Source: Treponema sp. Marseille-Q4130 (GTDB taxonomy: Bacteria > Spirochaetota > Spirochaetia > Treponematales > Treponemataceae). From it: a stretch of DNA of 50,499 bases. The notes under the pieces are model-generated. The model saw only the letters and a list, made by a program, of their open reading frames with translations. It was not told where the DNA came from and did no database searches. Below are positions 45,207 to 48,200 of the stretch, one piece after another (the stretch's first letter is position 1; each line of letters opens with the position of its first letter). The stretch is from positions 1-50,499 of the forward strand of contig NZ_JACSET010000015.1 in the NCBI RefSeq assembly GCF_014334325.1, read 5' to 3'. Made by a program: the position numbers and the translations under genes.

Positions 45207-48200
45207 ATGGCAAAGAAAGATATTGACAACAACGATTCTCCGGTATCGATTTCACAGGCTGAACTGGATAAAGCTTTTAGCGACGCGAAAGCGGCTTCAA
45301 AGGCGAATAAAACGGCGGATAAAAAAATCGCGAAAAAGCCGGCGTCGACAAAGGAAATTCTTCCTGCGGATCAGGCGCTCCCGGTAAAGCTTTTGCTCAT
45401 CCCGCTGCAGGGACGTCCGATTTTTCCGGGCATCTTTACGCCTCTTATGATCAACTCTTCCGACGATACGAAAGTGATCGAAGAAGTGTGCTCGGGCGAC
45501 GGCTATATCGGCATCGTCATGTTGAAAAACGAAACGGAAAATCCGTCAGTATCCGATCTGTACGAAGTCGGTACGATCGCGCGCATTATTAAAAAAATCA
45601 ATTTACCCGACGGCGGGCTCAACGTATTTATTTCGACGCTCAAACGTTTCCGCATTCGAAAAGCGCTGCACGCAACTACGCCGATGGCGGCTGCGGTCGA
45701 TTACCTTGACGATGAAGAAGACGACACGTTTGAAGTGAAAGCGCTCACGCGCGCGCTGTTGAGTGAAATGAAAGAAGTGTCCGAAAACAATCCGCTCTTT
45801 TCCGAAGAGATGCGCTTGAATATGGTGAACATCGATCATCCCGGAAAGATCGCCGATTTTATCGCGTCGATCCTCAACATCGATAAAGCCGATCAGCAAA
45901 AAGTGCTCGAAACGGTAAACGTGCGCCGGCGTATGGAGCAGGTGCTCATCTATATTAAAAAAGAGCAGGAGCTTTTACGCGTTCAGAAAAAAATTCAAAA
46001 TGAACTCAACGAACGTGTCGAAAAAAATCAGCGCGAATATTTTCTCCGCGAAGAGTTGAAGTCGATACAGGAAGAGCTCGGCACGGACGCCGAAGGCAAT
46101 GCGACCGATTATCAAAAATTTAAAAAGAAAGCGGAAGAATTTCATTTCGAAGGCGAGATAAAAGAGACGGTCGCCAACGAACTCGAAAAATTCAATCTCA
46201 TGGATCCGAACTCCGCCGAATACATCGGTACGCGGAATTTTCTCGAACTCGTCACGCAGCTTCCGTGGAACGACAAGCCTGCGGAAAATTACAGCCTCGA
46301 CGAAGCGAAAAAAATTCTCGAGCGCGATCACTTCGGCCTTGACGACGTAAAAAAACGCATCATGGAATTTTTATCGGTTCGAAAACTCAAGCAGGATGCA
46401 AAGGGCAGCATACTGCTGCTCGTAGGTCCTCCCGGCGTCGGCAAAACGAGTATCGGGCATTCGGTTGCGGATGCGATGCATAAACCTTTTTATCGATTTT
46501 CCGTCGGCGGTCTTCGCGATGAAGCTGAGATCAAAGGACACCGCAGAACTTATATCGGTGCGCTGCCCGGAAAAATCATACAAGGTTTGCGTACGACAAA
46601 AACGCGCGCTCCCGTTTTTATGATCGACGAAATCGATAAAATGGGACAGAGTTATCAGGGAGATCCCGCGAGCGCGCTGCTCGAAGTGCTCGATCCCGAA
46701 CAGAATGTCGGTTTCCGCGACAACTATCTCGATTTGCCGTTCGACATCTCCGACATATTTTTTATCCTCACTGCGAACACGCTCGATTCGATTCCCGAAC
46801 CGCTGCTCGACCGTGCCGAAGTCATTCAGCTGCCGGGCTATATCGATCAGGAAAAAATCGAAATCGCAAAGCGCTATCTCATTCCGAAAAATCTTAATAA
46901 AAACGGACTTGAAAAAAATCAAGTGCAGTATACGAAAGAAGCGCTTTTGATGATCGCCGAAGAGTACGCGCGCGAAGCCGGAGTGCGCAATTACGAAAAG
47001 AGCGTCGACAAGATCCACCGCAAAATCGTTACAGAACTTATGAACGAAGCGGAGAAAAAAGCGGAAGAAGCGGCGGCGAAAGCGAAAAAAGCAAAGGAAG
47101 CCGAACTTGCTGCAAAAAAGGCACAGGGCGAACACGTGCTCACGCAGTCGGAAATCGACAAACTCGTCAAAGCGAACCGTGATTTGACGCAGTCGGAAAT
47201 CGACTCGCTCGTGGATTCCCGCTGGAAGCTTTCGCAGGGCGATATCGATCTGCTCGTAAAGAAAAATAAAAATCTCACGCAGACGGAAATCGACAAACTC
47301 GTTTCGGTAAAGCGCGAAAGTGAAAAAGTTTCAGCCGCCGATTTCGTCGACCGAACGAAAAAATATACGATCGATGCGAAAGCCTTGGACAAATATCTCG
47401 GCAAACCCGTCTTCGATGAAAGCGAAATCAAAAAGGCGGACATCGCGGGAACGGCGATCGGTTTGGCGTGGACGAGCATGGGCGGCGATACGCTGCTCAT
47501 CGAAAGTATCGCTTATCCGAGTGCAAAGGGCGGACTGCAGCTCACCGGTCAGATGGGCGATGTAATGAAAGAAAGCGCACAAATCGCGATCAACTGGGTA
47601 AAAGCGCAGGTGCTTTCGAAAAAGATAAAGAGCGAAGAGTGGTTTGAAAAGAATATAATTCACTTGCACATTCCCGAAGGCGCGGTCAAAAAGGACGGTC
47701 CGTCCGCCGGCATTACGATGGCGACGGCGTTCATGTCGCTGCTCAGTGGAAAAATTATCAAGGGACATCTTGCGATGACGGGCGAGCTTTCGCTTACGGG
47801 GCAGGTTTTGCCGATCGGCGGGCTTCGTGAAAAAACGGTCGCGGCGCGTCGAAACGGGATCAAAACGATTTTGATTCCGAAAGCGAACGTGCGCGATCTC
47901 TCCGATATTCCCGATCACGTAAAGGCGGGTATTACGTTTATACCCGTAACTCGCGCCGAAGAAGTGATGCTGCACGCATTTGCGGAAAACGGAAAAACGG
48001 GAGCGCTTTCCGAAACGAAGAGCGTCAAAAAGATCGCGGTGAAAAAAAACGCTCAGGCGGAACGCGCGGTAAAAAGCGGTACGGGCAAAACGGCTGAGAA
48101 AAAATCGACAGCGAAAAAATCCTCAAGAAACGCTGACGGCGGAAAATCGTCGGCGACAAAAAAGGATACAAGTCGGCGCGAAAAATCCGTTGCTAAAAAG

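Follow-up and report, generated by a model that had tools for sequence, protein, structure and literature searches.

Why should a Lon protease carry four copies of a peptide that resembles the N-terminus of the flagellar switch protein FliM? The question is raised by the lon gene of Treponema sp. Marseille-Q4130, located on a stretch of 50,499 nucleotides (contig NZ_JACSET010000015.1) that was analyzed as a whole and is called the window here. Chemotaxis output is usually taken as ending at the motor, and we know of few dedicated regulators of Lon. If the resemblance is functional, a selected CheY-docking-type array on Lon would amount to a direct wire between chemotaxis and proteolysis, and the docking motif would have found a use in a machine other than the flagellar switch. 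Such a link between CheY and Lon could be tested at little cost, with purified CheY and peptides. No report of FliM-like motifs in Lon was found among the titles of open-licence papers on Lon, on CheY and FliM, on motility and on CpdR, a silence that weighs little, and the same literature yielded nothing on the Lon protease of Treponema socranskii.

A LonA protease with an additional repeat array

The lon gene (45207-48296, forward strand, as are all features of the gene given below) encodes an endopeptidase La of 1029 amino acids. Its open reading frame scores 935.3 bits with the LonA model TIGR00763, for which the cut-off is 608.05, and it is the only one of five TIGR00763 matches in its own genome that exceeds this value. 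Pfam recognizes Lon, AAA and related domains only, namely the LON substrate-binding N domain (residues 62-252, 45390-45962), the AAA+ core (residues 403-541, 46413-46829), the AAA+ lid Lon_lid (residues 565-618, 46899-47060) and the proteolytic domain Lon_C (residues 722-925, 47370-47981). The Walker A motif GPPGVGKT is present, and the residues of the Ser-Lys catalytic dyad, S833 and K876, are invariant in an alignment of 35 sequences. Neither the FliM family PF02154 nor a FliN-type domain is found in the protein, and the single PF02154 match in the genome is FliM itself, on contig 4. Over the best segment, the window Lon is 97% identical to that of T. socranskii subsp. socranskii and 94% identical to that of subsp. 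paredis.

The protein ends in a Lys/Ala/Ser-rich tail of about 100 residues (residues 928-1029, 47988-48293; pLDDT < 50) that resembles histone H1-type tails. The T. socranskii sequences have a long tail, two other Lons (L013 and L104) a shorter one, and it may possibly bind DNA. Among the neighbours of lon that were scanned with Pfam, a Bax1-I protein, an Mbeg1-like protein, a PIN protein and two frames without match, there is no chemotaxis gene. The PIN-domain protein, of 150 amino acids, is encoded just downstream of lon (48736-49188; PF01850, E 2.3e-12) and is VapC-type by its look.

The array lies between the lid and the proteolytic domain. The initial annotation had described four FliM-like units 15 residues apart, and their cores are indeed spaced by exactly 45 bp, spanning 47139-47303 (residues 645-699). 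Unit 1, HVLTQSEIDKLVKAN, occupies 47133-47177 with the core LTQSEIDKLV at 47139-47168, and unit 2, RDLTQSEIDSLVDSR, follows at 47178-47222 (core LTQSEIDSLV, 47184-47213). Unit 3, WKLSQGDIDLLVKKN, at 47223-47267 has the core LSQGDIDLLV (47229-47258), and unit 4, KNLTQTEIDKLVSVK, at 47268-47312 the core LTQTEIDKLV (47274-47303). The described divergence of the DNA copies was also found, as the window units are identical to each other at 22-32 of 45 bases. A fifth stretch that had been pointed out, SISQAELDKAF at residues 14-24 (45246-45278), is present as well. It is a weaker form of the motif, whose position 9 is occupied by A, T or V in the sequences compared, and it has decayed in L013. The N-tail around it is modelled with very low confidence and is probably disordered; AF2 predicts a short helix there (17-25). 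With the exception of this weak copy, the motifs are internal in Lon and do not take the N-terminal position that they have in a switch protein.

Distribution of the array among relatives

The window and 80 fetched loci, some of them cut by contig ends, gave a comparison set of 81 Lons. Four units are present in five of these and no motif match occurs in the other 76. In the 35-sequence alignment the array is found in the four Lons closest to the window (82-97% identical) and is absent from the remaining 30 (60-77%). The outcome named beforehand as speaking against the initial annotation, repeats that are absent or random in close relatives, was not observed, since all four closest fetched Lons carry the array. 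A general feature of treponemes it is not, given the 76 Lons that lack the array.

Wider samples, which are partly redundant with one another and with the fetched loci, gave a similar picture. A Lon query matched all 98 genomes of a genus sample, although in five of them the match reached only E ~1e-5 to 1e-7, so that no proper Lon was found there. An array profile built from five rows matched three genomes of this sample, and Lon arrays are present in two of them (G000 and G030); the third match (G016, E 0.0076) is a divergent FliM-like protein with a doubled motif, 30 residues apart. In a phylum sample of 392 genomes, the eight matches comprised six Lon arrays, all labelled as belonging to the own genus, and two unrelated proteins with E values (0.0015 and 0.0072) equal to or better than that of the FliM-like match. 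Both of the latter look like chance matches: by eye, one (L226) is a short frame that has a membrane segment and lies among phage-like genes, and the other (L227) a metallopeptidase-like protein.

At the DNA level, L222, L223 and L225 carry the same inserts as L011, L026 and L012. In all, there are seven distinct array inserts, all of them Treponema socranskii-like. Each consists of 137 residues from IVTELM to DESEIKK and contains four units without indel. Since the inserts were gathered by a string inside the array, members of the clade without an array would escape this count. The array is best read, from these sequences, as an innovation of one clade that has been kept since its common ancestor. 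As all the evidence comes from within one clade, it speaks for a single origin, and the statistics given below describe one event.

Likeness to the FliM and FliY docking peptide

FliM of the same genome starts with LSQDEIDQLL (MNEVLSQDEIDQLLTAI) and FliY with ISQDEIDALL (AISQDEIDALLSGV). A search of 59 treponeme genomes identified FliM in 56; among the best 30 loci, FliM reads LSQDEIDQLL in 29 cases and LSQDQIDELL in one. The neighbouring FliY was recognised in 28 frames, one of which is masked, and reads ISQxEIDALL in all 27 readable cases. The motif of the Lon units is the same as that of both switch proteins of their own genome, with V at position 10 where FliM and FliY have L. FliM and FliY differ from each other at positions 4 and 8, which are also the positions that vary in the Lon units (nine different residues at position 4 and five at position 8 among 28 units).

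When the motif was searched as a degenerate DNA pattern, the own genome (2.79 Mb) gave nine matches versus none for the reversed control. These are FliM, FliY, the four Lon units and three others, of which two begin the motif with K or N and one reads through a stop. A second pattern, with nine matches versus three in the control, retrieved FliM, FliY and the four Lon units again, together with three further proteins that appear by eye to be a Hen1-like methyltransferase, a penicillin-binding protein and an LRR protein. With a far more relaxed pattern, the 57 matches amount to noise, given 51 in the reversed control. A plasmid search matched four records, and the top one was discarded as a low-complexity reading opposite a serine-rich repeat frame. 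Profile scans of Pfam, NCBIfam and the PDB with lax cut-offs returned weak matches unrelated to one another and no known domain for the insert, and phmmer with a single sequence found no match in the PDB. In the lax Pfam and NCBIfam scans of the units, most matches were to unrelated families, some of which scored better than FliY (E 0.0039 at best) and FliM (0.075), which were matched by three of five members.

Motif-like stretches were also observed in an LRR_5 (BspA-type) protein of the own genome (L098/L229; C10, ~316.7-317.5 kb), where an acidic linker contains INQSSVDEIF and ISQDELNMLV. Including this genome, relatives (L230-L235) were found in seven of the eight genomes searched. Their first stretch reads INQASVDEIF, IDQASVDEIF, VDQSEVDNLF or VMQEEVNALF, and VSKEELEKLF in the most distant one; the second stretch decays in L233 and L234. 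It is possible, judging from these motifs, that the LRR_5 protein is a second docking protein.

Conservation of the contact positions

Within the motif, the CheY contacts of E. coli FliM are L6, Q8, I11, D12 and L14, and a V. cholerae model adds L15, according to the available part of the source (PMC3774744). These residues, chosen from the published table, translate to motif positions 1, 3, 6, 7, 9 and 10; contacts outside the motif, for instance FliM residues 3, 4 and 16, were left out. L1, Q3, D7 and L9 are each present in 28/28 units of the seven inserts, while position 6 is I in 27 and V once, and position 10 is V in 27 and F in one. The units accordingly show the FliM series L1, Q3, I6, D7 and L9 with a hydrophobic residue at position 10, which is V or F and not L. 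Variable columns number 2 of 24 for the contacts versus 17 of 36 for the other columns of the units (Fisher p = 0.0017, for columns that are not fully independent), and 28 of the 5005 possible choices of six unit positions equal the contact set in conservation. The proposed likeness to the CheY-docking peptide of FliM and FliY is therefore specific, as conservation falls on the contact positions, polar Q3 and D7 among them. In C. crescentus, FliM with an altered Ile-Asp pair in the motif no longer binds the CheY-like Cle proteins, and the motor no longer reverses, in so far as the accessible text of PMC5677366 describes it; in the Lon units this pair is I-D in 27 of 28 cases and V-D in one.

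The suggestion that the motif is under selection is supported at the protein level. When the window is compared with L012 and L013, pN at the eight motif positions is 0.014 with either sequence, and pS at the same positions is 0.54 and 0.59, respectively. The corresponding pN values are 0.36 and 0.42 for the two x positions and 0.22 and 0.25 for the spacers. Across the seven computed pairs, pN at the eight motif positions ranges from 0 to 0.041. Synonymous variation occurs in 18 of the 22 invariant contact codons; fixed contact residues combined with diverged codons mean that the protein motif is kept and not the DNA.

Taken together, the likeliest reading, with about an even chance of being right, is that the four units, possibly along with the N-terminal copy, are FliM-type CheY-docking peptides on an otherwise ordinary LonA.

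Predicted helices and the linker alternative

An AF2 model of the whole Lon, based on 35 sequences (mean pLDDT 64.5, pTM 0.43), was used for secondary structure only. It predicts, at moderate to low confidence, a single long helix (residues 594-639, 46986-47123) that continues from the lid through an E/K/A-rich stretch up to the array. One short helix follows in each unit (647-656, 662-670, 677-685 and 692-700), starting at Q3, just after S/T. The array modelled alone also gives four helices (mean pLDDT 67.9, pTM 0.26), and a Foldseek comparison of this low-confidence model with the PDB returned no match. The predicted pattern fits displayed peptides, though it may also be that of a loose helical domain.

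As an alternative, the units could form a short helical-repeat linker of capped helices, with an S/T...E capping box and a hydrophobic stripe, that serves as a spacer or mini-domain and has come to look like FliM by convergence on a good helix start. The four separate short helices predicted by AF2, the constant spacing of 15 residues and the unit-specific stretch SRWK, which is invariant in five aligned sequences, agree with such a linker. The array also occupies a site of variable length: in treponemes and their kin, the linker between lid and protease domain ranges from 42 residues (L089) to 187 residues (T. parvum, L028) in the 19 of 81 Lons from which it was extracted. Besides, the Hsp70 chain 3h0x of the PDB, a weak match (E 0.59), contains LTQEEIDRMV, so a FliM-like sequence can arise without CheY. 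Four of the six contacts are hydrophobic and could be kept by helix packing instead.

Since hydrophobic positions would stay in any packed helix, Q3 and D7 are the telling ones. The side chain of Q3 in FliM bonds to the CheY backbone and D7 pairs with a CheY lysine. A helix cap requires neither residue, yet both are found in 28/28 units. The generic cap motif occurs outside FliM, FliY and Lon 10 times in 833 frames (343,045 residues) of the fetched loci, a set that is biased to FliM and Lon loci and in which FliM, FliY and Lon were labelled by script. Four of these ten cases lack Q, five are FliY-like and one reads ITQDEVDKLL. The low pTM of the isolated array and its lack of a Foldseek match in the PDB also count against the helical linker, which we consider rather unlikely.

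CheY as the candidate partner

Receiver-domain searches of G000, G030 and G049 gave 15, 12 and 15 matches; the count for the own genome is 15. One CheY-sized receiver frame per genome was found in the three genomes examined for it (G000, G030 and G049), and in the list for the own genome CheY is the only stand-alone frame of this size. The frame just upstream of it is presumably CheX, as in known treponeme operons. The closest solved relative of this CheY is chain 3hzh, deposited as CheY-3, which we take to come from B. burgdorferi. CheY is conserved outside the clade: L140 and L144 have the same residue at 125 of 144 positions in an ungapped comparison, and they are alike over the presumed docking face, for which L140 (reading VIMVSA) was compared by eye. 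No clade-specific change and no signal of co-evolution was seen in the CheY-sized receivers of G000, G030 and G049. As CheY is alike in G049, a genome without array match, no specific pointer to the array can be read from CheY.

The same type of groove might be offered by a receiver or partner other than CheY, either another response regulator or a multivalent polar complex. An array would gain avidity only with a multivalent partner, and CheY usually occurs as a monomer. The 15 receiver-domain matches leave room for such a partner, and the Cle proteins of C. crescentus are receivers other than classical CheY that read the motif (available part of PMC5677366). Against this stands the finding that CheY, the presumed reader of the FliM and FliY motif, is the sole stand-alone-size receiver listed for the genome, and docking of a different partner appears quite improbable.

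A putative route from chemotaxis to proteolysis

If the units are indeed CheY-docking peptides, Lon would present them, between its ATPase lid and protease domain, on an arm that is flexible and in part helical. CheY-P would bind this array via the face that it uses for FliM, with up to 24 internal sites in an assumed hexamer. Sites for a single ligand do not gain affinity for a monomeric ligand by being placed in an array, so that the use of the array may lie in high occupancy, in a sink or in a multivalent partner. Occupancy by CheY-P might further act on Lon as CpdR does on ClpXP, by gating, priming or placing the protease, a step that we propose with less confidence, and proteolysis by Lon would then track the chemotactic state. 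In variants of CheY docking, CheY could be a substrate of Lon or Lon could be a sink for CheY-P. The most far-reaching version states that CheY-P docks on up to 24-30 FliM-type peptides of each hexamer, thereby switching or placing Lon, so that the steering signal also decides which targets are destroyed, and that the peptide is a general treponemal docking code present in the LRR protein, too; this version is doubtful.

The array could also be a built-in degradation adaptor, and not a regulatory input, that brings CheY, or a switch complex bound to CheY, to Lon as a substrate; we consider this very unlikely. Lon affects motility in other bacteria and SmiA is an adaptor of B. subtilis LonA, as stated in the accessible portions of the sources. 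A peptide that binds folded CheY, however, supplies no unfolded entry point by itself. A neutral tandem duplication that a tolerant linker has retained by inertia is disfavoured and hardly credible, because, even though the linker differs greatly among treponemes, the motif positions remained fixed while synonymous sites changed a lot (pS 0.54 and 0.59 for the window versus L012 and L013), and the seven distinct inserts agree in both the number and the length of their units.

Comparison with known systems

The closest relatives of the units in terms of sequence are the docking peptides of FliM and FliY. The contact residues (except V for L at position 10), the variable positions, the predicted short helix and the location in a flexible tail or linker are the same in both. 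The FliM and FliY peptide, however, is the N-terminus of a switch protein, whereas the Lon units are internal in a protease, are repeated four-fold and have a putative binding function. With LonA proteins of TIGR00763, the window Lon has all domains, the catalytic residues and the score in common; it differs by the extra array insert of ~100 residues, the FliM-like stretch in the N-tail and the Lys-rich C-tail.

More than one docking-type motif per protein is also found in the FliM-like protein of another treponeme (L102). In contrast to Lon, this is a switch-type protein, and its two copies are 30 residues apart, twice the spacing in Lon, one of them having P at position 2. It is encoded in G016 by a divergent second FliM-like frame of 461 amino acids beside a normal FliM, and its two motifs, both N-terminal, read LPQEEIDRLL and ISQEEIDALL. 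Extra weak FliM matches were observed in several genomes of the genus.

In the C. crescentus system of Cle proteins and FliM, the Ile-Asp pair is essential and several CheY-like proteins read the motif, whose target there is the flagellar motor, as far as the available part of PMC5677366 goes. A response regulator that acts on a protease is described, in the accessible text of PMC8973945, for Caulobacter, where the single-domain response regulator CpdR binds the N-domain of ClpX and primes ClpXP when unphosphorylated. The shared idea is that of a single-domain response regulator on an AAA+ protease and of phosphorylation-dependent priming. According to the same text, CpdR binds in its unphosphorylated form, whereas in Lon it is the phosphorylated form that the docking peptide would be expected to prefer. 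By analogy, CpdR and ClpXP would be the nearest precedent for the consequence proposed for Lon.
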